Of a DNA stretch of 55,393 nucleotides, positions 1-55,243 are shown in pieces. Where the stretch lies: assembly GCA_011525805.1 (NCBI GenBank), contig WYBR01000048.1, forward strand, positions 1 through 55,393, read 5' to 3'. The notes under the pieces are model-generated. The model ran no database searches and was not told where the DNA came from. It worked only from the letters and a program-made list of their open reading frames with translations. The stretch comes from Vicinamibacteraceae bacterium. GTDB lineage: Bacteria > Planctomycetota > Phycisphaerae > Phycisphaerales > UBA5793. The translations under genes and the position numbers were made by a program. Positions within the stretch are counted from its first letter, which is position 1; every line of letters starts with the position of its first letter.

Positions 1-1277
1 ACGGTGCTGTTGCGCATGATGAGTTTGGCGACGGCGCCGCCCATCGTCTCGATGCCCAGGCTCAGCGGAATCACGTCGAGCAGCAGCGCCTGCGCGTGCG
101 AGCCGGCGAGGATGCCCGCCTGCACCGCCGCGCCCAGTGCGACGACCTGATCGGGGTCGATGGCGGTGTAGGGGCGGGTCTGGAAGAACTCGCCGACGCG
201 CTCGCGCACGAGCGGGATGCGCGTCGAGCCGCCGACCATCACGACGCGGTCGATCTGCTTCGCTTCCAGTTTCGCGTCGCGCAGCGCCCGGCCACACGCG
301 TCGATCGTGCGCTCGACCCAGGGGGCGATCATGGCCTCGAACTCGCGCCGCTCAATCGTTCGCTGGTAGCGTCGGCCTTCGCCGAGGTCGATCTCGATGC
401 GCGCGGAGTCCTCGCTGCTCAGGCGGATTTTCGTGGACTCCGCAAAGCGGCGCAACGCCTGCTGCGTGCTCGGGGGGAACTGGAGGTCGAGGTCGAACTG
501 GCCGCGGATCTCGTGCTGGACAAGTTCGACGATCATCCGATCGACATCGTCGCCGCCAAGGTGCGTGTCGCCGGCGGTGGAGCGGACCTGGTAGAAGGCG
601 CTGTCCACGGCCTCAGCGCCGCCCGCCGCGCCCTCGGAGGGGATGATCTGGAGGATGGAAATATCGAAGGTGCCTCCGCCGAGGTCGTAGACAGCGATGG
701 TCTCCGGCTCGCCCGAGCGGCCGATGCCGTAGGCGAGGGCGGCGGCCGTGGGTTCGTTGATGATGCGCACCACGTCGAGACCGGCAAAGCGGCCGGCGTC
801 GCGCGTCGCCTGCCGCTGGGCGTCGTCGAAGTAGGCGGGAACGGTGATCACCGCCTTGCTCACCTCCCGGCCGAGCGAGCGCTCGGCGATTTCGCGCAAT
901 CGTTTGAGGATCGCCGCACTGATCTCCTGCGGACTGAGCAGGCGATCGTGGATGCGGAGGCGTGCGGCCGAGCCGTCGCCGGAGACAACGGAGTAACTGA
1001 GATAATCGACGTCGCCGCGCACCTGGTCGATCGTCTGGCCCATGAGGCGTTTGACGCTGTGGACCGTCTCGCTCGGAAACTCGACGATGTGCTCGCGCGC
1101 CTCGCGGCCGATGACCATCGACCCGTCCGCCCCGATGCGGACGACGGAAGGGAGGAGAACGTCGCCGGACTCGTCGGCGAGGATGCGCGGCCCGCGCTCA
1201 TCGCAGAAAGCGACGAGGCTGTTGGTCGTGCCGAGATCGATGCCGACGATGGGGCCGTTGGAGTGCGAATCGCTCAT
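1..1277 (-). CDS. Hsp70-family chaperone, DnaK/HscA-like (3' end outside window)
   Basis: ATP-dependent Hsp70 chaperone of the cytoplasm. The visible 425 residues are the nucleotide-binding domain and the first part of the substrate domain. The phosphate-binding loop DLGTTNS lies at residues 14-20, followed by [32 protein letters not shown] and [10 protein letters not shown], and the window ends in the linker/beta-domain sequence [17 protein letters not shown]. The ATG at 1275-1277 gives the usual short N-terminal tail. The gene runs off the left edge, so the substrate lid is not seen. It follows the lipoprotein gene on the same strand after 23 bases, so the two may be co-transcribed. The sequence is as close to HscA-type as to housekeeping DnaK by eye, and no grpE, dnaJ or isc gene is in view to decide. 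Confidence 0.93.
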
Positions 1278-1300
1278 CGGTGGATCGTAGGGTCGGCGGA

Positions 1301-1819
1301 TCAGGGCATGAGCGCCAGTTCGCTCAGCCGCGCGCGGAGGCGTTCGGCGGCGGGCGGAAGGGCGCCAGCGGCCCCGTCGAAGCGCGCGCCGCGCTCAACG
1401 CCGGCGTCGCGCACCCAAAGGAGCATCGAGAGCGAATCGGCCGGGGGAGGTTCGTGCAGCCACTGCGTGGGGAGGGTGGCGCGGTCCTGGCCGGCGGAGG
1501 CGACGGCCTGCCGCGCGAGATTGAGCAGTTCGACCATCTGCGTCGGCGAGAGTTGTCTCGCCAGGCCGGGGTAGTGGGTCGGGGTCGCCTGCCGTCCCCG
1601 CCCCGCGCGAAGGGCGCCGTCGGCGTGCAACACGAAGTGGCGCGCCTCCTCGCCGCCCGACGAAGCCGGCGCGAGCACCGCCGCGTCGAGGCTGAAATCG
1701 TCGGGAATGCCCTGCGTCGCCTTCGGCCCGGCGCAGCCGGTGAACGCGAGCAGCATCAGGGCCAGCGCGGACACCCGCCGGGGCGGTCGCCGACGAAAAG
1801 CGGTCGCAGGGTTCATCAT
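1301..1819 (-). CDS. Hypothetical lipoprotein
   Basis: Encodes 172 residues with a basic N-terminus, a short hydrophobic stretch and a lipobox (LAFTGC, Cys29), so it is probably a lipid-anchored envelope protein. The rest is soluble and I recognise no domain. Two consecutive ATG codons (1817-1819 and 1814-1816) are possible starts and neither has a clear ribosome binding site. It lies between the polysaccharide-export gene and the chaperone gene, all on the minus strand, with short gaps (61 and 23 bases), so a three-gene transcript is possible. Function unknown. Confidence 0.75.
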
Positions 1820-1880
1820 GCGACAGTGTAGGCCCGGGGATCGGGCGTCCGGAGCGGGACCGCGTCAGGATCGCGATCCG

Positions 1881-3476
1881 CTACTGCCCGAAGCGGTTCG
1901 TCGGCGGGGCGCCGAAGACGTCGTTGCCGAAGTTGCGGTCGAGCAGGAACCCGAAGCCGTAGGAGGTCCGGAAGCCGTTGCGCAGGACGGCGAGGGGCGC
2001 AGCGTACCACGTCGTGCCGACCTTGATGAGATCGTCGGGCTTGAGGTAGACGTCCGGCTCGGCGCCCTCGCTGATGGCGCGGTAGTTGAGCATGACGATC
2101 GCCTCCTGGTTGTCGCTGAGCATGCGGTGAATCTCGACGCGCTCGGGAATGGCCAGCGGTCCGAGGCCGCCCGCCGCCGCGATGGCGCGTTTGAGCGTCA
2201 GGCGGCCGTTCGTCGGGATCGCGAGCGTTCCGCCGCGGGCGATCTCGCCGTCGAGGTGCACAAGGCCCTGCCTGGGCGGCGGAATCATGATGATGTCGTT
2301 GGGCCGGATGACGATGTTGTAGGACGCCAGGCCGTCCATCAGCGGCTCGACGGGAATCTCGATCACCCGCTGCGTGACGAGTTGATCGAATTCCTGGGCC
2401 CGCTCCTGCGCCTCGGCCTGCGCGCTCATCGCCGCGGCCTCGGGGCTGCGCGCCACGAAGACCCACTTGCCGCCGAGGTAGGCCCACTCGCCTTCCCCTT
2501 GGCCGGCCTGGCCTCCGGGCGGCGCGATGTCGATCGCCGGCTGATTGCCGGCGTCCGGCTGGCGCGAGGTTCGCTGCGTGCGGTCCGAGTCGCCGCTGGA
2601 GCCCAGCGCCGCGGGTCGCCCTCCCTCGCCCTCGATGGCGCGATCGATAAGGTCGAGGATGTCCTCTTCTTCGGTCGGCGGGGGCGCGGGGACATCGACA
2701 TCAAGGGGAGGTGAGGTCTCGTCCTCCGGCCGGCCCGGGCTGCCGTGACCGAGTTCCACCTCGCGCTTCAGCGGCACTTGCCTCACGATGCGGATCTTCT
2801 TGACGGTGTCCGGGATGCCCCCGGCCGTGGCGATCGCGTCGAGGAGTCGGAAGTTGGGCTCGGGGATGTAAAAGGCGTTCGAGGCGCCGACGCCTCCGAT
2901 CACGTTGTAGGAACTGCGCCGCTTCGTCTCCGCCACCACGCTCACCACCGGATCGCGGACAAAGTCGGGGTCGAGGAGGTCCGCGATCTTGTTGCGGATT
3001 TCCGCTTCGGTCAGTTCGGAGACGTTGACCGCGCCGATCTGGGGGATAGTGATGAACCCGCGCTCATCGACGCTCCGTTGAATGACGTAGGGCTGCCCCG
3101 GCGAAATGAACTCGAAAATGTCGATCGTGAGCAGGTCGCCCGGGCCCACCTTGTAGATCGCCGGCTCGGCGATGAGGTCGGATGGTTGAATTTCCGTAGG
3201 CTGAATCGTGTCTTCCTGATCCGCCTCGATGACCGCGATGCGGTCGAGAATGGGCACGCGAATGGCCGTTTCTTCGAAGCGCCCCGTGACGGAGGGGTCC
3301 ATGAAGGAATCCCACTCGCAGCCCGCGAGGCCGAGCAGCGGCAGCAGCGAGGCCGAGAGGACAAGACGTCGACCCACCGCCCGCCGTGCGAACCATCGGC
3401 GGCGGAAAGTCTGCGTCAACGCTTCGGAGGCGATGCGCCCGTTGTGGCGTTCGGGAGATCGGGAATCCGCGATCAT
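1881..3476 (-). CDS. Polysaccharide export lipoprotein, Wza-like (Poly_export/SLBB)
   Basis: Outer-membrane polysaccharide export protein of the Wza/OPX type, which forms the exit channel for capsule or exopolysaccharide. A lipobox (LLGLAGC, Cys53) follows a basic leader. The Poly_export domain begins at about residue 107 with [15 protein letters not shown], and beta-grasp SLBB-type segments follow ([19 protein letters not shown]; later [16 protein letters not shown] with [11 protein letters not shown]). Between them is a roughly 100-residue acidic, Pro/Gly-rich linker (about 220-320) that is absent from classic Wza. At 531 residues it is longer than Wza (about 380). The start at 3476 is preferred over an in-frame codon at 3557 because GGAG lies nine bases upstream. 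No tyrosine kinase or glycosyltransferase genes adjoin it in the window. It is divergent from lipA. Confidence 0.85.
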
Positions 3477-6288: not shown

Positions 6289-7800
6289 TCACTCAAACTC
6301 GATCCCCTGCGCCAGCGGGAGGTCTTCGCCCCAGTTGATGGTGCAGGTCTGTCGGCGCATGTACGCCTTCCACGCGTCCGAGCCCGACTCGCGTCCGCCG
6401 CCGGTGTCCTTCTCGCCGCCGAAGGCGCCGCCGATTTCGGCGCCGCTCGTGCCGATGTTCACGTTGGCGATGCCGCAGTCTGAGCCGGCGTGGCTCAGGA
6501 ATCGCTCCGCCCGCCGCACCGAGTCGGTGAAGATCGCACTGCTCAGCCCCTGATCGACGGAGTTCTGCTGTGCGATCGCTTCATCGAGATCGTCGAACTC
6601 GATTACGTAGAGAATCGGCGCGAAGGTTTCCTCGCGGATGATCGGCAGCGACGCCGTCGCGCGGATGATCGCCGGCTCGACGAAGTGGCCCGGTCGGTCG
6701 AGGCGCTTGCCGCCGAAGAGAATCTCGCCGCCCTGTCGTTTCGCCGTTTCGATCGCCTTCATCATCGTCTCGACGGCATTGGCGTGGATCATCGGCCCCA
6801 TGAGCGTCTTCGGATCGAGCGGGTCGCCGATGCGCGGCAGGATCGTCTCGTACGCGCGTTTCAGCCTCGACACGACCTCCTCCGCCACGCCGCGCTGGAC
6901 GAAGAGCCGGCGCGTCGTGGTGCAGCGCTGTCCCGTGGTGCCCACCGCGCCGAAGACAACCGCGCGGACCGCGAGGTCGAGATCGGCATCATCGCAGATG
7001 ATCAGCGCGTTGTTGCCGCCGAGTTCGAGCAGCGTGCGCCCGAGCCGCGCCGCCACCACCTGCCCGACATGCCGGCCCATGCGGCACGAACCCGTCGCCG
7101 AAATCAGCGGCAGTCTCCGGTCGCGGATCATCGCCTCGCCGACCTGCTCATCCGTCCCGATCACCAGTTCGAAGACGCCTTCGAGATCGTGTCGCCGCAT
7201 GACCGACTCGACGGTCTCATGCAGGGCGATGGCGGTGAGGGGCGTGAGCAGCGACGGCTTCCAGACCATCGTGTCGCCGCACACCGCCGCGATCATCGCG
7301 TTCCACGCCCACACCGCGGCGGGGAAGTTGAACGCGGTGATGATGCCGATGACGCCCAGCGGATGCCACTGCTCGTACATGCGGTGCCGCGGCCGCTCAG
7401 AGTGAGTCGTCATGCCGTAGAGTTGGCGCGACAGGCCGACGGCGAAGTCGCAGATGTCGATGCACTCCTGAATCTCGCCGATCCCCTCGGCCCTGATCTT
7501 GCCCATTTCGAGGGAGATGAGTTCGCCCAGCGCCTCGCGCTTCTCGCGCAGCGCCAGGCCGATGAGGCGCACGATCTCACCGCGCTTGGGCGCCGGCGCC
7601 ATCCGCCAAGTGCGAAATCGCTGTGAAGCGCTCGCGACCGCCGCGTCAAAGGCGATTCGATCCGCCAGGCGCGCGGAGGCGATCGCCTCGCCGGCGCTCG
7701 GATTCTCCGAGACGATCCACCCCGGCTCGCGGCAGGCCCCGGTCCGGACGAGTGGGTGGCGATCGAGTTGGAGTTGATGAAGGAGATCGTGACCCGTCAT
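6289..7800 (-). CDS. Aldehyde dehydrogenase, ALDH7 type
   Basis: NAD(P)+-dependent aldehyde dehydrogenase of 503 residues. The fold landmarks are all present: AFNFP (Asn158), VWKPS (Lys181), LELGGNNA with general base Glu259, GTTGQRCTTTRR with nucleophile Cys293, and EETFAPILYV. The GGNNA and GQRCTTTRR variants point to the ALDH7 (alpha-aminoadipic semialdehyde dehydrogenase, AmaB/Pcd) branch, which oxidises aminoadipate semialdehyde in lysine catabolism or related aldehydes. The start at 7800 removes a low-quality 25-residue extension. No lysine-degradation gene is adjacent, so the physiological substrate is open. Confidence 0.93.
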   Translation of the reverse strand: MTGHDLLHQLQLDRHPLVRTGACREPGWIVSENPSAGEAIASARLADRIAFDAAVASASQRFRTWRMAPAPKRGEIVRLIGLALREKREALGELISLEMGKIRAEGIGEIQECIDICDFAVGLSRQLYGMTTHSERPRHRMYEQWHPLGVIGIITAFNFPAAVWAWNAMIAAVCGDTMVWKPSLLTPLTAIALHETVESVMRRHDLEGVFELVIGTDEQVGEAMIRDRRLPLISATGSCRMGRHVGQVVAARLGRTLLELGGNNALIICDDADLDLAVRAVVFGAVGTTGQRCTTTRRLFVQRGVAEEVVSRLKRAYETILPRIGDPLDPKTLMGPMIHANAVETMMKAIETAKRQGGEILFGGKRLDRPGHFVEPAIIRATASLPIIREETFAPILYVIEFDDLDEAIAQQNSVDQGLSSAIFTDSVRRAERFLSHAGSDCGIANVNIGTSGAEIGGAFGGEKDTGGGRESGSDAWKAYMRRQTCTINWGEDLPLAQGIEFE

Positions 7801-7973
7801 GGGGAAGTTGTAGCAAGGCTGCGGCTGCGTTTCTGAATGAGCCTGCGGCCTTGCCATTTGACCTTGAGCGGGCAAAGATTATCCGAACAAGACCCGTACA
7901 CGGGTCGCCGGGCCGTCTGAGTCGGCCGGCCCGGGCCTTCGCGTCCCCGACATCAACGTCCAGGAGATTGAAA

Positions 7974-8654
7974 ATGAAGCGTCACATGCTGATCGGTCTG
8001 GTCGGTGCGGGCTGCATCGCCCTGATGATGACTCCGCCCCTGCTCTCGCTCGTGCAGCCCCCGGGAGAACATCCGTCGGATCATCCCAAGAAGGATCATC
8101 CCGCCAAGGAGCACCCCGCCGGGGAGCATCCGGCCGCTGGCCAGCCGGAAATGGAGGCCTGGCTCGCGCAGAACCAGCCGGGCGAGCATCACAAGCACCT
8201 CGAGAAGTTCGTCGGCACCTTCACCACCAGGCAGAAGTTCTGGATGGCGCCCGACACGGAGCCCGAGGAGTACACGGGCAAGGCGGTGAACCGCATGATC
8301 CTTGGCGGGCGCTACCTCGAATCCGAATACACCGCCGAGGTCTTCGGGGCGCCTTTCACCGGCCGCGGCCTGACCGGCTACGACAACATGGCCGGCAAGT
8401 ACGTCTCCATCTGGATCGACACCATGTCCACCGGCTTCACCATCGCCGAGGGGCAGTGCGCGCGCGAGGGGCATGAACTCAACCTCGCGGGCGAAATGGA
8501 CGCGGGCGAAATGGACGCGGGCGAGATGGGCAAGATGAAGTACCGCGAGGTCTTCACCATCCTCGATGAGAATTCCTACAAGTTCGAGTGGTTCGACTCC
8601 GCCGCGGGCGAAGAGCACAAGTCAATGGAGATCATCTACACCCGCGTGAAGTGA
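7974..8654 (+). CDS. Secreted DUF1579-family protein with His-rich N-terminal region
   Basis: 226 residues. A hydrophobic signal-like stretch (about residues 5-27) is followed by five HP dipeptides spaced four to five residues apart (residues 33-53), a possible metal-binding or flexible segment. The remainder matches the DUF1579 pattern: EKFVGTFTTRQKFWM, ILGGRYLESEYTAEVFG, GRGLTGYDNMAGKYVSIW and a C-terminal FKFEWFD-like strand. A 15-base unit is repeated three times within the gene, giving AGEMD repeats. The start has AGGAG seven bases upstream. A strong hairpin follows the stop. The biochemical function of the family is not known. Confidence 0.85.
   Translation: MKRHMLIGLVGAGCIALMMTPPLLSLVQPPGEHPSDHPKKDHPAKEHPAGEHPAAGQPEMEAWLAQNQPGEHHKHLEKFVGTFTTRQKFWMAPDTEPEEYTGKAVNRMILGGRYLESEYTAEVFGAPFTGRGLTGYDNMAGKYVSIWIDTMSTGFTIAEGQCAREGHELNLAGEMDAGEMDAGEMGKMKYREVFTILDENSYKFEWFDSAAGEEHKSMEIIYTRVK
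8487..8531 (+). repeat. 15-nt in-frame tandem repeat (3 copies)
   Basis: The unit GCGGGCGAAATGGAC occurs at 8487-8501 and 8502-8516, and as a diverged third copy at 8517-8531. It is in frame and encodes AGEMD/AGEMG repeats within the DUF1579 gene. Its length is likely to vary between strains by slippage. Confidence 0.85.
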
Positions 8655-8678
8655 CGCGGGCGCGATGGTTGCACTCAA

Positions 8679-8720
8679 CGCCGAAGCCCACGTCCATTGA
8701 ACGTGGGCTTCGGCGGTTTC
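8679..8720. terminator. Bidirectional Rho-independent terminator
   Basis: A perfect 15-bp stem, CGCCGAAGCCCACGT at 8679-8693 with ACGTGGGCTTCGGCG at 8701-8715, closes a seven-base loop and is followed by GTTTCTCT. It lies between the stop of the DUF1579 gene and the convergent end of metF, so it can end both transcripts. Confidence 0.85.
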
Positions 8721-8738
8721 TCTGCAGCACCGTCGCGT

Positions 8739-9626
8739 TCACGCGCGCAACTCTCCCGAGTGCTTGATCCCGAGGCTCTCGTAGATGCGCCTTGTCGCCG
8801 CGGACTTGTTGAGCGTGTAGAAGTGCAGGCCGCGCACCCGGCGATCGAGCAGGTCGCGGCACTGCTCCGTGGCCCAGTGGGCGCCCACGCTCGCCACCGC
8901 CTGCGCGTCCTCCCCCGCTCGCTTGAGCGCCCGCAGCAGCGGCGCCGGCAGCCGCGCCCCGCTCAGCCCCGCCATCCGCTTCACGCCCGAGATCGACTGG
9001 ATCGGCATGATCCCCGCCACGATCGGCACGCGGATCCCCGCCAGTTCACATCGCTCCACGAAGTCATAGAAATCGCGATTGTCGAAGAACAACTGCGTGA
9101 TGACGACATCGGCGCCCGCGTCGACTTTGGCTTTGAGGTGGTCGATGTCCGCGAGTTTGTCCGTCGTCTCGGGGTGGCCCTCCGGATAGCCCGCCACGCC
9201 GATGCCCAGCGTCGGGAAGTGCTTGCGGATGAAGGCGACGAGATCGCCGGCGTACCCGAAGCCGCCCGGCGTGGTCTCGAAGCGCCCCGCGCCCGGCGGA
9301 TCGCCTCGCAACGCCAGCACGTTCTCAATCCCGCCTTCCGCATACGTCTGAAGAACCTCGCCGATCTCGTCCCGTGTCGAGCCTACGCACGTCAGGTGCG
9401 GCACCGTCGTCAGCGACGTCTCGCGGCGGAGGCGCAGCACCAGGTCGCGGGTGCGCTCGCGCGTCGAACCGCCGGCGCCGTAGGTCACGCTCACGAAGGA
9501 GGGGCCGAGCGCCTCAAGACTCGCGGCGCTGGCGTAGAGCGCCTCCGCCGCCTCGTCGGTCTTCGGAGGAAAGAACTCGAAGGAGATGCTCGGTCGGTGA
9601 TCGGCCAGTATCCGGTCGAATCGCAT
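8739..9626 (-). CDS. metF: 5,10-methylenetetrahydrofolate reductase
   Basis: FAD enzyme that reduces 5,10-methylene-THF to 5-methyl-THF for methionine synthesis. The 295 residues match bacterial MetF in length and motifs: SFEFFPPK with catalytic Glu17, FVSVTYGAGGST, THLTC-like PHLTCVGSTRDE, VLALRGDPP, GVAGYPEGHPE, DAGADVVITQLFFDN and the PIVAGIMPI loop. The start at 9626 has AGGAG seven bases upstream. The gene stands alone between a hairpin terminator and a divergent lipoprotein gene. I looked for a SAM-type riboswitch in the 175-base leader and saw none. Confidence 0.96.
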   Translation of the reverse strand: MRFDRILADHRPSISFEFFPPKTDEAAEALYASAASLEALGPSFVSVTYGAGGSTRERTRDLVLRLRRETSLTTVPHLTCVGSTRDEIGEVLQTYAEGGIENVLALRGDPPGAGRFETTPGGFGYAGDLVAFIRKHFPTLGIGVAGYPEGHPETTDKLADIDHLKAKVDAGADVVITQLFFDNRDFYDFVERCELAGIRVPIVAGIMPIQSISGVKRMAGLSGARLPAPLLRALKRAGEDAQAVASVGAHWATEQCRDLLDRRVRGLHFYTLNKSAATRRIYESLGIKHSGELRA

Positions 9627-9801
9627 TCGCGCTCCTGCGGGCCGCGCCTCGCCGCGGCCGTCTCGTGAACCCTTGCAGTGTAAACGGCGGCCGCGAAGGG
9701 TCAACGTGTCTCCAGCGCTTGACTGCGGCCGCGCATCCCATCATCATCGTGGGGTCGGCGTCCGCCGGCCGCGACACACCTTGCTTTGAGAGGGCCTGCC
9801 C

Positions 9802-10416
9802 ATGCACCGCATCTCCACTCTGCTCATCCTGCTCGCGGCGAGCCTGCTCACCGCGTGCTCCTCCGTCTCCACGCCCCACCTGCTCGGCGAAGCGATCGAC
9901 GACGCCACCGCTGAGGAGTTCAATGGCGTCTGGAAGGCCGGCGACACGCTCTTCATGGTCCGGCACCTCGGCGGCGGCGAGTTCCGAGCCGGCACGTCCA
10001 GGTGGAATGAGGGCGATCGGAAGTTTGAGTTCGATCAGGGCCTCCTGCACATCCGCGCCTTGGGCGATGTGATGCTCCTGCACCTGCAGGAAGATGAGGA
10101 AGGGGAAGTCGAAGGCGCCGCCGAGTATTCGCTCGCCCGCGTGATCCTCACGGAGACTGACGAGATTCTCCTCATCCCCGCCGATGCCAGGCGCTTCGCC
10201 GCCGCGGTGCGGGCGGGCGAACTCAAGGGCGAAGTCTCCGGCGGCGGCGCCGGAAACGCCCCGGAGGGATTCGTCGAAGGAAGCGCCACCAACGTGCAAC
10301 TCATGGGAACCAAAGAGGAGATCGACGCCTACCTCACCGCCGACCGCGTGCCTCTGCTCTTCAATGTTTCAGACTGCGGCGTGATGCGGCGAATCGAGGG
10401 TGCGAAGATCGAATAG
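9802..10416 (+). CDS. Hypothetical lipoprotein
   Basis: 204 residues with a clear lipoprotein signal (LLTAC, Cys19). The mature part is soluble and mixed alpha/beta, beginning with an LLGEAIDDATAEEFNGVWKA segment that may be lipocalin-like (a GVW motif early in a strand-rich domain), but I cannot name a family. It is divergent from metF and convergent with rtcB, whose stop lies 15 bases away. Function unknown. Confidence 0.78.
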   Translation: MHRISTLLILLAASLLTACSSVSTPHLLGEAIDDATAEEFNGVWKAGDTLFMVRHLGGGEFRAGTSRWNEGDRKFEFDQGLLHIRALGDVMLLHLQEDEEGEVEGAAEYSLARVILTETDEILLIPADARRFAAAVRAGELKGEVSGGGAGNAPEGFVEGSATNVQLMGTKEEIDAYLTADRVPLLFNVSDCGVMRRIEGAKIE

Positions 10417-10431: not shown

Positions 10432-11619
10432 TCAATCCTCAGCGCGCTCGCCTTCCGGGGCCATGCGCACGATCGCGGGATCGAAGCGGGCGATGATCTC
10501 GACGAGATCGGCCTGCTGCGCCATGACCTCGTGGATGTCCTTGTAGGCCATGGGCACTTCGTCGAGGCCGGCGCTGAGCAGCGTCACGCCGCGCTCCTCG
10601 AGCAGTTTCTTCACGTGGCTCCAGCGGAAGGAGTGCTTCGCGGCGGTGCGCGACATCGTCCGCCCCGCGCCGTGCGCCGCCGAGCAGAGCGAATCCGCCG
10701 ACCCCTTGCCGCGCACGACGAAACCCGGCGCCGCCATCGAGCCGGGGATCATCCCGAGCACGCCAGCGCCCGCCGGCGTCGCCCCCTTGCGATGCACGAT
10801 CACCTCGACGCCGCCGTGAACTTCCTTCCACGCGAAGTTGTGATGATTCTCCACGCCCGTCAGCACGCGCGCGCCGAGATGGCGCACGATCGAGTCGTGG
10901 ATGATCGCGTGATTCGCCGAGGCGTACAACCCCATGAGTTCCATCGCCGCCCAGTATTCGCGCCCCGCATCGGTGTCGAGATCGAGCCAGGCGAGGTGCC
11001 GCAGTTCTTTGGGCAACTCGGGATGCAGGTCCATTGCGAGTTTCGAGTAGTGGCTCGCCACGGCGTAGCCCGTGCCCCGGCTGCCGCTGTGGCTGAGCAG
11101 CGCGACGTACACGCCCGCGTCGAGGTCGAGTTCCGGCTCATCGAGCGTCAGCGTGCCGAACTCGACAAAGTGATTGCCCGAGCCGCTCGTGCCCAGTTGC
11201 GACCACGCCTTGTCGCGATTGAGTTGCGTCACGGGGCTGACGGACCAGTCCTCCTCCATCACGGCGTGCTCACGGCGATCGCTCCACTTCGCGCCTATAC
11301 CGAAGGCTGTCTCTGCCTTGAGCACGTTGGAGAGGCGGTCGATCTGCCCGCGCAGAGCATTGACCGGAAGATCGAGCACGGTGAGTTTCATGCGGCAGGC
11401 GATGTCTACGCCGACGGCGTAGGGGATGACGGCGTTGTCCGTCGCCAGCACCCCGCCGATCGGCAGGCCGTAGCCCACGTGCGCATCAGGCATGAGAGCC
11501 GCCGCGACCGACACCGGCAGGCGGCAGGCATTTCGCATCTGGTCGATGGAAGCGGGATCGAGGTCCAGCCCCCACGACTTCCACTCGATCCCGCCGCACT
11601 GTTCAGTCCGGAAGGGCAT
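10432..11619 (-). CDS. rtcB: RNA-splicing ligase RtcB
   Basis: Mn2+/GTP-dependent ligase joining RNA 2',3'-cyclic phosphate or 3'-phosphate ends to 5'-OH ends. Metal-site residues are visible: Asp72 and Cys75 in GVDIACRM, His150 in GSGNHFVEF, His177 in LLSHSGSRGTG and the ENHHNFAW histidines (259-260). The guanylylated histidine is His316 in the AHGAGR motif. The protein is 395 residues, like the short bacterial RtcB group. The start at 11619 has GGAG; an ATG at 11652 is a weaker alternative. No archease, rtcA or rtcR gene lies nearby, so regulation and RNA targets are not indicated. Confidence 0.95.
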   Translation of the reverse strand: MPFRTEQCGGIEWKSWGLDLDPASIDQMRNACRLPVSVAAALMPDAHVGYGLPIGGVLATDNAVIPYAVGVDIACRMKLTVLDLPVNALRGQIDRLSNVLKAETAFGIGAKWSDRREHAVMEEDWSVSPVTQLNRDKAWSQLGTSGSGNHFVEFGTLTLDEPELDLDAGVYVALLSHSGSRGTGYAVASHYSKLAMDLHPELPKELRHLAWLDLDTDAGREYWAAMELMGLYASANHAIIHDSIVRHLGARVLTGVENHHNFAWKEVHGGVEVIVHRKGATPAGAGVLGMIPGSMAAPGFVVRGKGSADSLCSAAHGAGRTMSRTAAKHSFRWSHVKKLLEERGVTLLSAGLDEVPMAYKDIHEVMAQQADLVEIIARFDPAIVRMAPEGERAED

Positions 11620-11698
11620 GGGTTCTCCGCGATTGGATTCGCGATGGGGCATCGTAGACCGATGCTCGGCGAGTGAACGGGGCGCTCGCGCACGACCA

Positions 11699-11724: not shown

Positions 11725-11904
11725 GATGGCAAGCGGGGTGAAGCGTCATAGGTCGGGCCAAGGCTCAGCGCCGGCCCGGCGGTTGGGCGACTGAGTCGCT
11801 CTTAGGGCACGAGGGCGTGGAGGCGCGGAACTGCAAGTTACCCCCGACCCGTTTTGTTTCGTGCCTGCAAAAGTGTGAGATTCCTGCGAATTCAAGGGAT
11901 TCCA

Positions 11905-11934
11905 GCGACACTTCGCCTGGGCATGAGGTATACT
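11905..11934 (+). promoter_or_regulatory. Putative sigma-70 promoter for the 12.0-15.6 kb cluster
   Basis: GCGACA (4 of 6 to TTGACA) at 11905-11910, an 18-base spacer, then TATACT (5 of 6 to TATAAT) at 11929-11934. The expected start of transcription is about 60 bases upstream of the first gene of the cluster. Prediction only. Confidence 0.4.
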
Positions 11935-12000: not shown

Positions 12001-12348
12001 GTGACCTTTGTTCAGTCCGATCACCACAGCGTCGATGAGGCTGGCTACAAGGCGGTGACGCCCGCCGCGCGGTGCGGTCTTGCAACCGCCGCGACTTCCA
12101 TCCCCGGATCATCAACGATTCCGTTGCGGAATCCGACCGTCCGCAAGCGCTCGCACCTGCTCATCCGCCACCACACCGGTCCCGGCAATACGCTCTACAT
12201 CGGCGGCGACGGCGCCTCCACGGCGCAGGGCTATCCGCTCGCGCTGGGGCAGGTGCTCGACCTGCCCGTGAGTCCGGGCGTGATGATCACGGCCGTGACC
12301 GGGGCTCAGATCTCCAACACCGGAGTCCGCACACTTGAAGCAGGTTGA
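12001..12348 (+). CDS. Small phage-structural-like beta-domain protein, cluster gene 1
   Basis: 115 residues from a GTG at 12001 with AGGAGG seven bases upstream; an in-frame ATG at 11923 is possible but lacks a good site. The C-terminal 70 residues show the pattern KRSHLLIRHHTGPGNTLYIG, GYPLALGQVLDLPV, then a strand ending VRTLEAG. I know this layout (LLI+N..TVYIGG..VTT..GYPL..GE.L.+...LYAI....ADVR+LE) from small phage head or tail decoration proteins. There is no signal peptide. It is the first of four related genes in a row. Assignment to a phage-like family is inference from the motif. Confidence 0.6.
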   Translation: MTFVQSDHHSVDEAGYKAVTPAARCGLATAATSIPGSSTIPLRNPTVRKRSHLLIRHHTGPGNTLYIGGDGASTAQGYPLALGQVLDLPVSPGVMITAVTGAQISNTGVRTLEAG

Positions 12349-12407
12349 GCACGGCCCGGAGACCGTGCCATCACGACGCAAATCCATCAACCAGATCGGA
12401 GTCAATC

Positions 12408-12773
12408 ATGCCCACACCCAGCAATCTTCAGAACCTCGATGAACGCGGCTACGTCTTCGTCACCGACGCCGCCGACTGTCAGATCTTGGCGAGCCAGAAA
12501 GAAATCGACGTTTCGACGGCCCCGACGCCGATCCCGCAGGACGCCACGGGCAATCCGCGCAACCTGCCCGGGAGGCGTCGCTTCTACTTGAAGAACTTCA
12601 ACCCAGCCGCAGGCGACACCGTGTACATCGGCGACGCTTCGGTGACCACGGCGACGGGCTATCCGATCGTGGCGCAGGATGAACTCATTCTCGACATCAC
12701 GGATAACATCCAGTTGTACGCGATCGTCGCCTCGACGGAGAGCGCGGACTTGCGCATGCTGGAACTCGCCTGA
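12408..12773 (+). CDS. Small phage-structural-like beta-domain protein, cluster gene 2
   Basis: 121 residues; GGAG lies seven bases before the ATG. This is the clearest member of the series: RRFYLKNFNPAAGDTVYIGD, then VTTATGYPIVAQDELILDI, then LYAIVASTESADLRMLELA. It shares this three-part pattern with the gene 59 bases upstream and the one 14 bases downstream. No signal peptide or membrane segment. The N-terminal 50 residues differ between the paralogues. Likely a small beta-sandwich that multimerises or binds a partner, by analogy with phage decoration proteins; not demonstrated. Confidence 0.7.
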   Translation: MPTPSNLQNLDERGYVFVTDAADCQILASQKEIDVSTAPTPIPQDATGNPRNLPGRRRFYLKNFNPAAGDTVYIGDASVTTATGYPIVAQDELILDITDNIQLYAIVASTESADLRMLELA

Positions 12774-12787
12774 CGGGAGATCGCTCC

Positions 12788-13141
12788 ATGCCCGCGAAGG
12801 GGATTCAGATCGATGCATCGTTTGATTGCGCCATGCGCGCGACCTCGACGCTGATCACCGCCGGGCCGGGCGGTCCGCCGCAACCCGTTCCCGCCCGGCC
12901 GATGCCCGGCCGCCGGTGGCTGCGGATCATGAACAACGGACGGATCGTGGACGGCCAGCGAGTGGACGTTCAGGTGATGATTGGCAATCTGGACGTCACT
13001 TTTGTGAACCCGATCGAAGGTTTTGGACTTGAGATTGACGAATTCATCGACCTGCCGTTTGACGACTCGACTATCGTGTACGCCATCGTCAACGTGACGA
13101 GCGACCAGACGGCGGACTTGCGGACCATTGAACTGAGATGA
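12788..13141 (+). CDS. Small phage-structural-like beta-domain protein, cluster gene 3
   Basis: 117 residues, GGGAG seven bases before the ATG. The sequence GRRWLRIMNNGRIVDGQRVD, then VMIGNLDVTFVNPIEGFGL, and a C-terminal VYAIVNVTSDQTADLRTIEL aligns with the two preceding proteins, although YIG has become MIG and the middle is diverged. Its TGA overlaps the ATG of the next gene (ATGA at 13138-13141), so translation is coupled and the series is an operon. Confidence 0.68.
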   Translation: MPAKGIQIDASFDCAMRATSTLITAGPGGPPQPVPARPMPGRRWLRIMNNGRIVDGQRVDVQVMIGNLDVTFVNPIEGFGLEIDEFIDLPFDDSTIVYAIVNVTSDQTADLRTIELR

Positions 13142-13545
13142 GCCCGAGATCAGGAATCCTCAACGGAAAGCGAACACCGCGCGGAATCGGCATCACGCGT
13201 GCGGTTGCGTGCCAGATGCAGGCGATCTGGAATCCGAACATGCACGGCCAAGGCAACTGGGCAGCCGACGTTCCTAACCCTCCGAGGCGCCGGCTGCGTG
13301 TGCGGCAAGCGTTGATCGTCAAGTACTTTGACGCTGGCGATCCGGCGGGCATCTTTTATCTTGTCGGAGTTCAGCTGACGCGCATGAAAGCCAGTGATGT
13401 GGGATATCCGATCGTGGGCGTTTCGGGATCCGAGACCCGCCGCCAGAAGCGGCTCAAACAGATCAATCTTCCGATTACAGGAGCAGTCCGCGTCTTTTCC
13501 GGCCAGCTTGCCGTCGAATTCGGATCGACACTTGAATACGGTTGA
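13138..13545 (+). CDS. Small basic protein, diverged cluster gene 4
   Basis: 135 residues, starting in a four-base overlap with gene 3. It is basic (many Arg/Lys) and the most diverged of the four: a central FYLVGVQLTRMKASDVGYPI echoes the YIG...GYP core, and the end (LAVEFGSTLEYG) resembles the ...LE tails of the others. No signal peptide. Local base composition is somewhat less GC-rich than in the surrounding housekeeping genes. Function unknown; placed with the phage-like series by position and the weak core motif. Confidence 0.6.
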   Translation: MSPRSGILNGKRTPRGIGITRAVACQMQAIWNPNMHGQGNWAADVPNPPRRRLRVRQALIVKYFDAGDPAGIFYLVGVQLTRMKASDVGYPIVGVSGSETRRQKRLKQINLPITGAVRVFSGQLAVEFGSTLEYG

Positions 13546-13573
13546 TTGACCTGATAGGTAAGGTGAGATCATC

Positions 13574-14593
13574 ATGGTTGGAAACGCACTTTGGAATGTA
13601 GGCTTGACCGTGCTTCTGTCCACGCAGCCACTCGGCGCACAGGATCGCTTGGATGGCATGGCTCATCGCGGCGACTATCCGTCCCTGCACCCGAGTCAAG
13701 CGACGCACCACAATCCATCGTCAGGCCCGGTCTGCTTCTACGGCGGTGACTTCGCGGGCAGAGCTGCCCTGAACTCGCAGCGCAATACGCTTGTCGACGA
13801 ATCGTGGACGTTCGATGACGTGCAGTGGCCGGGCGGACGGGCATCGGTCGCCTGGGCCAACTTTCTCCTTTTTGAAGGCGCCGTCACGCCCGTTGCAGGT
13901 GACATCGCCATCTACCAAGGCATGGGAGAAGGAAGGTGGGGGACTCAGATCATCGAGATCTGGGACATCACCGATGGGCTTTCCTGGAAGCCCACGGGTC
14001 GCATTGGTTTTGGAAGGGTCGAGTACGAACTTCGCTTCAATGTGGACTTCGCACTGGCCCCGGGCGGGTATCACGTCGGCATTCGACTCGTCGGAACAGG
14101 CTCGGGGGAGGCATTCATCACTGTATCCAACGGCGGAAACGCGCAGGGTGAGCCGATCGGCAACGGCAACTCGTTCTTTCAGTCGTACTTTTTCGGATTC
14201 CCGGTTCCGACAGATTGGCAGAACCTTAAGGGCGCCGGACTTTGGGATGTGTCCATTGGCCTCTGCGGCGACGCGGGTGTCGCGCTGGCTCTTGACGGCG
14301 AGTGCCCCGGGGTGATGACGGCTCGGGTCAGTGGTGCGACGCCGGGCGGGCGTGTGGCACTCATCCACTCCGCGCCCGGGCGCTGCGGCGGCCAGACGAC
14401 CATCCCGCCGCCGAATCCATGCTCCGGAGCCGTCCTCCCCCTCGGCGGCGCTTCGCTCGTCGGCATCATCACCGCCGACGGGCAAGGCAACGCCGCCGTC
14501 ACCGGCAACGTCCCCGGCGCCGTCTGCGGCCGCGTCTGCCTCCTCGCCCTCGACCTGCCCACCTGCGAAGTGAGCAACGTCGTCGAGTTCTGA
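13574..14593 (+). CDS. Secreted protein: jelly-roll-like domain plus shared C-terminal module
   Basis: 339 residues. A signal sequence ends near PLGAQ (residue 23). A variable 30-residue spacer follows, then a strand-rich domain from CFYGGDF to SIGLCGD (about residues 50-235; motifs SWTFDDVQW, GDIAIYQGMGEG, YELRFNV, GGYHVGIR, PIGNGNSFFQSYFFG). The last 100 residues form a Cys-containing module (CPGVMTARVSGATPGG ... PCSGAVLPLGG ... ADGQGNAAVTG ... CEVSNVVEF) also found in three other secreted proteins here. It is 28 bases after gene 4 of the cluster, with AGGTGAG upstream. The next gene is a paralogue. Function unknown; presumably surface-exposed or released. Confidence 0.8.
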   Translation: MVGNALWNVGLTVLLSTQPLGAQDRLDGMAHRGDYPSLHPSQATHHNPSSGPVCFYGGDFAGRAALNSQRNTLVDESWTFDDVQWPGGRASVAWANFLLFEGAVTPVAGDIAIYQGMGEGRWGTQIIEIWDITDGLSWKPTGRIGFGRVEYELRFNVDFALAPGGYHVGIRLVGTGSGEAFITVSNGGNAQGEPIGNGNSFFQSYFFGFPVPTDWQNLKGAGLWDVSIGLCGDAGVALALDGECPGVMTARVSGATPGGRVALIHSAPGRCGGQTTIPPPNPCSGAVLPLGGASLVGIITADGQGNAAVTGNVPGAVCGRVCLLALDLPTCEVSNVVEF

Positions 14594-14624
14594 CTCAGAA
14601 GGCCGGTTTCGCGGAGGCTTCATA

Positions 14625-15557
14625 ATGAAGAAGGTCACGACAGCCTGTGCGCTCGCAATGATGACCACCAGCATGGCCGCCGGACAGAACTGCTTCTACG
14701 GCGGCGACTTTGACTTCCGATCGGCTGTGTCATCCGATCGGAACACGCGTGTCAGCGAGTCATGGGTGTTTGACGATGTAGAGTGGAGTGGCGGGGAAGT
14801 CAGTCGGATCCGAGCACACTTTGTCACTGATAGAGATACGGGAGTGCCGGTTGCGGGTGACGTTGCTATCTACAGGGGAATGGCAGAAGGCATCTGGGGG
14901 GAGCGGGTTGTCGATATCAGAGATGCAACAGATGGTCTATCGTGGTTGCTCACCGGACGGCAGCATGTTGGGCGCGATGAATACGAACTCCGATTCAATG
15001 TCCGATTCGACCTTCCGCCGGGGTCATATCACGTCGGCGTTCGACCTGTCGGGACCGGTACCGGGCAAAACTGGATCTCATCTACGAGTGGTGAGAACTC
15101 GGAGGGCGCGCCAATTGGGAATGGCAACTCGTTTTTCCAATCGCTTCACTTTGGGTACGCGGTCCCCACTGACGTTCAGAACCTGATTGGGCAAGGCGTC
15201 TGGGACTTCTCCCTTGGTCTGTGCGGCGAGGCTGAGCCGAGTTTGACTCTGTCGCTGGAAGGCGGCTGCCCTGGCGTGATGACGGCTCGGGTCAGCGGGG
15301 CGACGCCGGGCGGGCGCATTGCCCTCATCCGATCTGCGCCGGGCGGCTGCGGGGGGCAGACGACGATCCCGCCCTCCAACCCCTGCTCAGGCACCGTCCT
15401 CCCCCTCGGCGGCGCTGCGCTCGTGCGCATCATCACCGCCGATGGCGAAGGTAATGCAGCAGTTACAGGCGACGTCCCCGGCGCCGTCTGTGGCCGCGTC
15501 TGCCTCGTGGTTCTTGACCTGCCTACCTGCGAGGTGAGCAACGTCGCGGAGTTTTGA
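14625..15557 (+). CDS. Secreted protein, tandem paralogue of preceding gene
   Basis: 310 residues with a classic signal peptide (MKK start, cleavage near MAAGQ). Same architecture as its neighbour: CFYGGDF...ESWVFDDVEW, GDVAIYRGMAEGIWG, DEYELRFNVRFDLPPGSYHVG written across residues 115-140, IGNGNSFFQSLHFG, then the same C-terminal module. The N-terminal domains are about half identical, whereas the C-terminal modules are nearly the same at DNA level. The coding sequence of the N-terminal domain is noticeably less GC-rich than its surroundings. It closes the six-gene run, 31 bases after its paralogue; convergent with ogt with no obvious terminator in the 31-base gap. Confidence 0.8.
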   Translation: MKKVTTACALAMMTTSMAAGQNCFYGGDFDFRSAVSSDRNTRVSESWVFDDVEWSGGEVSRIRAHFVTDRDTGVPVAGDVAIYRGMAEGIWGERVVDIRDATDGLSWLLTGRQHVGRDEYELRFNVRFDLPPGSYHVGVRPVGTGTGQNWISSTSGENSEGAPIGNGNSFFQSLHFGYAVPTDVQNLIGQGVWDFSLGLCGEAEPSLTLSLEGGCPGVMTARVSGATPGGRIALIRSAPGGCGGQTTIPPSNPCSGTVLPLGGAALVRIITADGEGNAAVTGDVPGAVCGRVCLVVLDLPTCEVSNVAEF

Positions 15558-15588: not shown

Positions 15589-16128
15589 CTAGCGCGCGGC
15601 CAGGACGGGCATCGCGTGGCGCTCAAGTTCGAGCAGGCCGCGCTTGATGCGCAGGGCGTGGCTGTCGCCGTCGGTGGTGCCGGCGTAGCCGTGGAGGCGG
15701 CCGCCGCTGCCGACCACGCGGTGGCAGGGGACGATCACCGATAGCGGGTTGGAGCGCATCGCCTGACCGGCGGCGCGCGAGGCCATGGGCGAGCCGGCCA
15801 TCTCGGCCAGATCGGCGTAGGTCATCACTTCGCCATGGGGGATGCGCCGGCACGCCTCCCAGCACGCGCGGTGAAAGGGCGGACCATCGGGCGTCGGCAC
15901 GTCCGACCAGTCCGGCACGTCGCGGCCGGCAAAGTAGGCGCGCAATCGATCCGCCACGTCATCGAGCCAGGTCGAGTTGCCGTGCGAGCGTTCCCGCGCG
16001 ATGGCAATCTCTGCAAGTTCGCGCCAGTGCGAGGAGAGCGAGCCGTCGGAGGCGAGCGTGAGGACGAACGCGCCGACGGGTGAAGGGATGATGCGTGTGG
16101 CCGAGGCGCTGCGATGGGTTCCGTTCAT
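15589..16128 (-). CDS. ogt: Methylated-DNA--[protein]-cysteine S-methyltransferase
   Basis: DNA repair protein that transfers the alkyl group of O6-alkylguanine to its own cysteine. The active-site motif VIVPCHRV places Cys135. The helix-turn-helix segment RIPHGEVMTYADLAEMAG and the Arg finger region SPMASRAAGQAMRSNP match the family. The 179 residues fit Ogt/AGT length, and there is no Ada N-terminal domain, so it is not itself a regulator. It lies 33 bases downstream of tyrS on the same strand and may be read from the tyrS promoter. Confidence 0.95.
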   Translation of the reverse strand: MNGTHRSASATRIIPSPVGAFVLTLASDGSLSSHWRELAEIAIARERSHGNSTWLDDVADRLRAYFAGRDVPDWSDVPTPDGPPFHRACWEACRRIPHGEVMTYADLAEMAGSPMASRAAGQAMRSNPLSVIVPCHRVVGSGGRLHGYAGTTDGDSHALRIKRGLLELERHAMPVLAAR

Positions 16129-31838: not shown

Positions 31839-32046
31839 CGGTGGAGGTCGGGCCCGCTGCTCTGAGCGCGGCCCGGCCGTTCGGCGCTTGCGCGACTTGG
31901 TGCGCTATGGGCAGGTCGGTCACCCTACTGCCGGGCCGGCGCGGAGCCTTGACCCGATGTGCCGCGCTTCGATGCACCCCACGACTCGCAGAGCCTCATC
32001 GTGGACGTGGCCCCAAGTCTCAAGCCCCCGCATACACTCCCCACCC

Positions 32047-53887: not shown

Positions 53888-55243
53888 TCACTCGAATCGA
53901 TGCACGACCAACTGGCTGATGGCGCATTCGTTCTGGACAACGGCCTGAAAGAGGATCGTCTGGCCACGGGCGATGACGGGCACGCTCCTCGTGATAGTTG
54001 CTTCACCATTGCCATCAGCGATTGCAGTGCCGATGATCTGTGGATTATCCAATTGCAGCGCGTTCTGCTGAAGGTCGCAGCCGGGGATTCGGGTTCCGCC
54101 GCTGTGAAGCGAGTAGAGAAAGACGACTCGGGCGCCCGGGGTAGCCCCAGTGAGGGTCAGCGTGTTCGGTCCGGGCGCAGCGCCCGGCACGGGTGAACTG
54201 AGTTCCATCGTGGGAGCGACCGGAGTGAGCAGGAACGGATACGCCTTGAGTGGCTGACCGATCACGTAGCCTTGTGCCGCGATCTGGCCAGCATCGTTGA
54301 TGTCCCACGCCATGTCGATGCGCCAGTTCTTTCGCGGTTTCGGGGGCATGAGGCTGTCAAGCGTGCGCATCCCGTTGTACTGATCCCAGACAAAGCCGTA
54401 GACGTTGGTCGGCTGGCGACCCACCCAACCGACGACCTGGCCTACGTTGTTGATTCCCCACGCGGAACTGCCGATGCCGAGTTCCGAGTTGTGCAAATCG
54501 ACAATCTGCTCATTGACCCACGCAACGGCATGAGCATTGTCGTTGGGCCCGTCGGATTGGCCAACAATCTGGCCAAGATCGTTGATCGCCAGAGCGGCGC
54601 TCGGATCCGATCTCAATATTGGCAGTTCCACGACTCCACCGTTCTCCCACAAGACGGCTTTTTGACGCCAATCAAATGTGGCGGATGACCCGACGATCTG
54701 CCCGGCAGCATTGATGTCGTAAGCTGCGCCACCGGATTGACCAAGGTTCGGCAATGCCGTCATTCGTCCATTCTCCCACAAGAATCCGCCGCCGCCCTCA
54801 ACCGCATCGGCGACACCTACAACTTGAGAAAGATCATTGATTGCGTTTGCTCTGCTTTCATTTCCACCCAGAGTTCCCAAATCAATCACCTGACCATTCC
54901 GCCAGAGTACAGCGTGCTCATCGCTGCTCCCGGGCAAGCTGCTCCAACCAACTGCCTCACCCAGGCTGTTAAGTCCCTTCGCTTCGCTGCGGATCCCGCC
55001 AAGCGTGCCCAGATCGAAGAGGTCGGACGACGTCCACCGAACTCCATGAAAGCCGACGGCGTCCGTGCTCGATGCGCCGACCACGTTTCCGACCGCGTCG
55101 ATCGCGCGCGTCCATGTGTGCGGTTCATCGCGATTGAGCAAGGATAGTTCAAGGAGTGCGTAGTGAGAGTCCTGCGCCGCGGCGAACGAACCACAGCACG
55201 CCGCACATACTGCCGCCACTAGAGTCACGAGTTTGAATGACAT
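53888..55243 (-). CDS. Secreted HAF-repeat protein with shared C-terminal module
   Basis: 451 residues with a signal peptide (cleavage near FAAAQD). About seven HAF-type extracellular repeats are seen, each with a GTLGG- or strand-like part and an [A/D/G]IN-[x]-[G/S]-Q-[V/I]-VG core (AINDLSQVVG, DINAAGQIVG, AINDLGQIVG, GINNVGQVVG, DINDAGQIAA). The last 105 residues (LTLTGATPGARVVFLYS ... IPGCDLQQNALQL ... IADGNGEATI ... CAISQLVVHRF) resemble the C-terminal module of the proteins at 13.6-15.6 and 38.0-39.6 kb. AGGAG precedes the ATG. Base composition is less GC-rich than in neighbouring genes. Confidence 0.87.
   Translation of the reverse strand: MSFKLVTLVAAVCAACCGSFAAAQDSHYALLELSLLNRDEPHTWTRAIDAVGNVVGASSTDAVGFHGVRWTSSDLFDLGTLGGIRSEAKGLNSLGEAVGWSSLPGSSDEHAVLWRNGQVIDLGTLGGNESRANAINDLSQVVGVADAVEGGGGFLWENGRMTALPNLGQSGGAAYDINAAGQIVGSSATFDWRQKAVLWENGGVVELPILRSDPSAALAINDLGQIVGQSDGPNDNAHAVAWVNEQIVDLHNSELGIGSSAWGINNVGQVVGWVGRQPTNVYGFVWDQYNGMRTLDSLMPPKPRKNWRIDMAWDINDAGQIAAQGYVIGQPLKAYPFLLTPVAPTMELSSPVPGAAPGPNTLTLTGATPGARVVFLYSLHSGGTRIPGCDLQQNALQLDNPQIIGTAIADGNGEATITRSVPVIARGQTILFQAVVQNECAISQLVVHRFE

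Follow-up and report, generated by a model that had tools for sequence, protein, structure and literature searches.

A tandem array of phage-related jelly-roll proteins repeatedly linked to a secreted protein gene in a planctomycete: a candidate domesticated cassette

Why should a bacterial chromosome carry a run of small genes with a phage-structural look that leads, on the same strand, into genes for secreted proteins? This question arises from six consecutive genes at positions 12001-15557 of contig WYBR01000048.1 from a planctomycete. The whole stretch of 55,393 nucleotides analyzed here, called the window, is contig C26 of the host genome G000 (4.54 Mb, 138 contigs); G004 is the genome of a sister species in the same genus. 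The explanation we favor, with slightly less than even confidence, is that the four small genes encode an array of jelly-roll proteins from phage virions, which the host has domesticated, retained and copied as a cassette in its chromosome. None of the six proteins had a significant match in Pfam or NCBIfam, and we found no description of this module in the literature. The six genes are as follows.

12001-12348, + strand: g1, 115 amino acids (aa), GTG start, small jelly-roll family (related to phrog_30212), single cysteine (Cys25)
12408-12773, + strand: g2, 121 aa, the best conserved gene of the module; modeled as an eight-stranded jelly-roll (predicted local distance difference test score, pLDDT, 82)
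12788-13141, + strand: g3, a family member of 117 aa
13138-13545, + strand: g4, 135 aa, a diverged member with the insertion ETRRQKRLKQ; overlaps g3 by 4 bp
13574-14593, + strand: secreted protein a, with signal peptide, variable N-domain and conserved C-domain (CPGVMTARVSGATPGG...)
14625-15557, + strand: secreted protein b, paralogue of a

The original prediction, made from the DNA letters alone, had placed six open reading frames here with gaps of 59, 14, -4, 28 and 31 bases; all six occur at these coordinates on the + strand and the spacing is exact. It had also taken the four small genes for tandem paralogues. This holds for g1 to g3 by pairwise BLASTP (g1/g2, E 1e-14, 32% over 117 aa; g2/g3, E 1e-5) and for g4 by profile. 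Pairwise comparison of g2 with g4 gave no significant match; the g4 family, built with the counterparts from other modules, aligned with the g1/g2 family at 92-93% in hhalign (E about 1e-7), against a maximum of 0.6% for 20 column-shuffled control profiles. The shared core of the RRFYLKN.. type was drawn too widely: the quoted motif is that of g2, with a close version in g1 and only a partial one in g3 and g4. The two larger proteins are indeed paralogous and bear signal peptides (68% identity over 293 aa; signal peptides judged by inspection).

When the host genome was searched with the g2 protein, 15 places matched. The order g1-g2-g3-g4-secreted protein, which we call type A, occurs at three unlinked sites in G000 (C26, C71 and C3) and at two in G004 (C38 and C48), so that the conserved gene order in a related genome that had been named as support was found. 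Secreted protein b of the window is closest to the secreted protein of the C48 module (77% overall, 81% in the N-domain). A second arrangement, type B, has the order s1-s2-s3-s4-secreted protein, perhaps preceded by s0; its N-domain is of the same type as in A and its C-domain is different. The type B modules are:

G000 C5 (L025), 7396-10287
G000 C15 (L024), 7236-10134
G004 C168 (L029), 7714-10195
G004 C72 (L030), 1226-3016, ending at the contig end

All nine arrays, in two genomes and of both types, run into a secreted gene on the same strand. A lone family member of 91 aa without the N-terminal extension was also seen on G000 C15 (L026, 7879-8154) and G004 C168 (L029, 10332-10607); the type B module directly adjoins it in G004, and a pair of IS3-type transposase genes lies about 2 kb off in G000.

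The phage-structural affinity of the small proteins was borne out. The phage family phrog_30212 matches 11 of 17 family members (best E 2.3e-8) and also the phage homologues, and profile-profile comparison between the family and the phage proteins gave 99.2% (E 1.6e-19). Using tblastn against phages, g2 found nothing significant and the type B protein s1 found significant matches. A relative is present in the Streptomyces phages phiCAM, phiScoe10 and Speedwell; in the last two it is the gene directly after the portal gene. Related loci in IMG/VR (E 7e-13 to 2e-7) were found by a degenerate-pattern scan built on s1; a pattern built on g2 was unsuccessful. In these contigs the relatives are flanked by the head-tail adaptor on one side and, on the other, by the major head protein or a neighboring structural gene. 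Four of them (L053, L056, L070 and L071) hold two or three family members close together in structural regions, with other small proteins interspersed and the function unannotated. The tandem array is therefore itself a phage arrangement. The label "decoration protein" in the original prediction was too specific, since the phage relatives occur beside the major head protein, beside the portal, or in tandem near tail-type genes, and carry no annotated function.

The mapped flanks of the modules contain housekeeping genes. No integrase, terminase, portal, capsid or other prophage gene was recognised there, as had been claimed for the window, and the Pfam models Phage_portal and TerL_ATPase, the only two searched genome-wide, had no match in the host genome. 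For these reasons we file the small proteins as homologous to a phage family and not as a working virion module. What had been named as evidence against the idea, namely unrelated folds or genes lying apart or inside complete prophages, was not found.

By predicted fold, too, phage proteins are the nearest. In the g2 model, residues 26-121 are predicted with confidence (pLDDT about 90) and the N-terminal 22 residues with low confidence; the top matches of the model in BFVD are small phage proteins (E 8e-7, template modeling (TM) score 0.85 by target). In the PDB, Foldseek placed Ena proteins at ranks 1 to 5 (Ena2A with two chains, Ena3A, Ena1C and the Ena fibre 7a02; E 4e-4 to 1.6e-3), followed by YomS, STIV A223 and PR772. 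VIA returned the PM2 spike P1 (Z 9.1) and Ena3A (Z 8.9) among cupins and other jelly-rolls, and Z values of 8-9 are little above the usual background. Among solved structures, the best credible match by sequence is the "Penton base (GP14)" of 9t9r (residues 93-177, E 1.6e-4). An assignment of 9t9r to FLiP was dropped, because the penton of FLiP is gp12, its gp14 being a transglycosylase. Profile A2 also hit designed "Pizza" repeat proteins; these hits were likewise set aside as sums of short repeated matches.

The resemblance to Ena deserves a closer look. In Bacillus, each Ena subunit is a jelly-roll whose N-terminal connector contains cysteines (PMC8619143), and a nonameric ring of Ena1C anchors the fibre (PMC12921279). 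Of the 19 intact g1-g4 sequences in the five type A modules, 17 have a single cysteine after the N-terminal extension, and in a weak sequence alignment with Ena3A (E 0.17) this conserved cysteine falls on an Ena cysteine. The N-terminal CC motif of Ena was not found, and the paired acceptor cysteines are mostly missing: most type A subunits have one cysteine and several type B subunits have none. The Pfam Enas model (PF13157) matched nothing in the host genome even at E values up to 10, and profile comparison with Ena by hhalign reached 1-33%, so by sequence the family is not an Ena. An Ena1C-style ring may nevertheless serve as a model for the division of labor among tandem paralogues, as an analogy and not as a class assignment.

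Is the module a mobile insertion, and is it maintained? The window module lies between two genes:

10432-11652, - strand: rtcB, left flank of the insertion
15589-16128, - strand: ogt/MGMT-type methyltransferase gene, right flank of the insertion

These genes are about 3.9 kb apart in the window and about 29 bp apart in the congeners G003 and G005. In G002 ogt adjoins rtcB without a module, and in G004 the region is rearranged. Judged by gene order, the window module is an insertion relative to its congeners, three of which have an empty ogt-rtcB site. The selD/tolB site carries a type A module in both G000 (C71) and G004 (C48). Here blastn aligned the flanks and g1-g3 at 84% nucleotide identity and the secreted C-domain at 79%; g4 and the secreted N-domain gave no alignment at the cut-off used. 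Across copies, protein identity is 81-93% for g1 and g2 (excluding the frameshifted g1 of C3) and 45-82% for g4, and it is 55-81% for the secreted N-domain and 81-91% for the C-domain. Since g1/g2 and the C-domain are conserved, and g4 and the N-domain divergent, the module has constant ends and a variable core. Pairwise identities of g4 and the N-domain do not clearly track each other, and we do not claim that the two co-vary. The ratio of nonsynonymous to synonymous substitution (dN/dS) is 0.06-0.32 where estimable, with synonymous distances saturated for some g3 and g4 pairs; by this measure the module genes are under purifying selection.

Two elements upstream of g1 bear on expression and mobility:

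11929-11934, + strand: -10-like box TATACT, from a promoter scan upstream of g1
11753-11775, + strand: GC-rich inverted repeat resembling repetitive extragenic palindromic (REP) elements, 226 bp upstream of g1

In the scan, the TATACT box was the sole promoter-like site found upstream of g1, and each of the five type A copies has a similar box before this gene. In type B, two copies carry TTGCAT-17 nt-TATGCT or TACATT at the equivalent position. A weak promoter-like site was also found before the first secreted gene. Because promoter-like boxes recur upstream of the copies, the six genes likely form an operon, in agreement with the operon-like organization and single promoter candidate noted originally. 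The REP-like element has only 13 copies genome-wide (≤3 mismatches), one of them also in the window at 31935-31957. Three of the 13 lie at the edges of two modules, those of the window and C71; on C71 one copy is 223 bp upstream of g1 in the same orientation as in the window, and a second is about 60 bp downstream of the module. The element, over-represented at these edges, may be a recombination substrate; the pattern was noticed post hoc.

The partner protein has a wider family of its own. Its N-domain has 11 members in the host genome, and no small array was detectable beside those on C12, C39, C100 and C1, nor beside the ones checked in other genomes. The coupling is hence a property of the modules and not of the whole secreted family. 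On C39 (L094, 1308-3623), a contig of 5 kb, two secreted proteins with this N-domain type stand in tandem without a small array. A DUF3466-like protein in the window (53888-55141, - strand) has a C-terminal part that resembles the C-domain of the secreted pair. This type of C-domain also ends other exported proteins, e.g. L031 11818-13014, and is perhaps a shared retention domain. A test for homology between the secreted and the small proteins found none (hhalign 0.2%).

If the small genes are a domesticated phage-virion array, the following picture can be drawn. The array would have spread through the genome as a non-autonomous cassette. The four small proteins probably co-assemble, by analogy with the jelly-roll subunits of virions and Ena, into a ring, a cap or a short fibre, with g1/g2 as the constant and g3/g4 as the variable part of the assembly. 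The secreted protein would be exported and held outside by its conserved C-domain, displaying the variable N-domain. The likeliest joint product would be an adhesive or protective appendage, either on the cell surface or released. The fuller proposal is a bacterial appendage or surface-display system not described before, made of tandem phage-virion jelly-rolls together with an exported partner whose N-domain can be swapped, and multiplied in the genome as a non-autonomous, repeat-flanked cassette; we put this forward as doubtful.

Several observations weigh against this picture. The distribution of the family is very narrow, with two species among 301 genomes of the order: only G000 and G004, plus one weak match with a stop. 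Profile A2 found the family in the host genome only among 397 genomes of the class, and 392 genomes of the phylum yielded three other genomes with one distant member each; all these counts are lower bounds, as the search begins with a filter that diverged members may escape. Outside the modules the secreted N-domain mostly occurs without small arrays. The subunits are not all indispensable, because g1 of C3 (L023, 8264-8594) is split by a frameshift, with g2-g4 and the secreted gene intact, and because s0 is broken by a stop, frameshift or deletion in all three readable type B copies. The AlphaFold2 model of the secreted protein is poor (pLDDT 45), too poor for a fold search, and any physical contact between this protein and the small array is putative. 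Finally, and as the main difficulty, the small proteins have no signal peptide, so that they could form a structure with the secreted protein outside the cell only after lysis or through an unrecognised export pathway. Spore appendages are made in the mother cell and freed by lysis. The small proteins may be released in the same way, act inside the cell, or act against phages. A role of the array in decorating or building a surface structure, as originally suggested, can consequently be put only conditionally, given the missing export signal and the unreliable model of the secreted protein.

Other explanations account for part of the same evidence. The module could be phage-derived selfish or satellite-like cargo, which moves by repeat recombination or with helper phages and serves transfer, e.g. 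by modifying the helper virion, and not the cell. Such cargo would explain the dispersed copies, the empty site in congeners, and the direct REP-like copies on both sides of the C71 module with another upstream of the window module; it would also suit the modules at selD/tolB in both species, between which g4 and the secreted N-domain cannot be aligned. However, no integrase, transposase, terminase or portal gene was recognised in or near most modules, the portal and terminase models also being unmatched genome-wide. Furthermore, a signal-peptide protein is unusual for a satellite, and purifying selection is strong at synonymous distances (dS) of about 0.4 and above. We regard this explanation as unlikely. 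An accidental neighborhood, with a prophage remnant in decay and an unrelated secreted gene downstream of it, is highly improbable. Frameshifted genes in some copies would agree with decay, but the same-strand run of all nine arrays into a secreted gene, in two diverged lineages of both partners, contradicts chance, dN/dS is far below 1, and no other prophage genes were recognised in the flanks.

In a strict Ena-type appendage, the small proteins would be joined by disulfides into a fibre anchored by a ring, like the products of the tandem Bacillus genes ena1A/B/C, and the secreted protein would serve as tip or anchor. The five leading Foldseek ranks, the Z score and weak cysteine-on-cysteine alignment with Ena3A, the single cysteine after the N-terminal extension in most type A subunits, and the tandem paralogues without signal peptide all speak for it. 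We still consider it improbable, as the Pfam model and the profile comparison fail to connect the families, the paired acceptor cysteines are mostly missing, and the jelly-roll resemblance exceeds the usual background by little. In an anti-phage system, host-made virion-like subunits would spoil the assembly of infecting phages, the exported protein would mask the surface, and the variability of g3/g4 and the N-domain would reflect an arms race. Homology to phage head-module proteins, the variable core between constant ends and the patchy distribution are consistent with this quite improbable reading. Yet no defence genes were recognised beside the modules in the maps (a defence-system library was not searched), and variability by itself is no proof of conflict.

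A parallel case perhaps exists in two distant planctomycetes, G468 (C25, L138) and G502 (C148, L139), which are among the three other genomes of the phylum with a distant member. Both have arrays of small beta-type proteins that include one distant family member and end in a protein of 1,356 or 1,420 aa; the latter proteins start with MA(R/C)GGSCGCGGSCGGEK and differ in their C-termini.

Apart from complete tails and capsids, few phage structural proteins are known to have been kept by cells, and domestication of the array would add to these cases. Its subunits, should they assemble, would make up a minimal self-assembling unit of four proteins, each about 120 aa long. Such a unit would offer a tangible way into the question of whether Ena-like appendages share origins with virion vertex or decoration proteins. 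That one phage family stands in tandem in phages and in a bacterium points to a common, uncharacterised virion component.

How does the module compare with known systems? The closest are the small proteins of phage head/portal modules (phrog_30212; phiCAM, phiScoe10, Speedwell; L049-L056, L070, L071), which share its sequence family, its predicted fold and, in several cases, tandem members. These phage proteins are set among portal, head and connector genes without a secreted partner, whereas the planctomycete proteins often have an N-terminal extension, which in type A contains the conserved cysteine. The vertex, penton and spike jelly-rolls of viruses (9t9r, PM2 P1, PR772 chain O, STIV A223) have a similar fold, and 9t9r also matches the profile; they are, however, single vertex proteins of icosahedral viruses and do not form an array coupled to a secreted protein. 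Bacillus Ena (PF13157/DUF3992; ena1A-B-C) resembles the module as the nearest solved fold, with tandem, cytoplasmic-looking subunits of about 115 aa that have an N-terminal extension. The module differs from Ena in lacking a significant sequence match and the Ena cysteine set, in its host, which is a planctomycete and not of the spore-former lineage, and in its partner, a Sec-type secreted protein in place of a collagen-like tip protein. Tailocins, gene transfer agents and contractile injection systems keep tail or capsid machinery; in the module no tube, sheath, portal or packaging genes were recognised, and it consists of small jelly-rolls. The module would share with these systems the retention of phage-virion genes by a host for another use.

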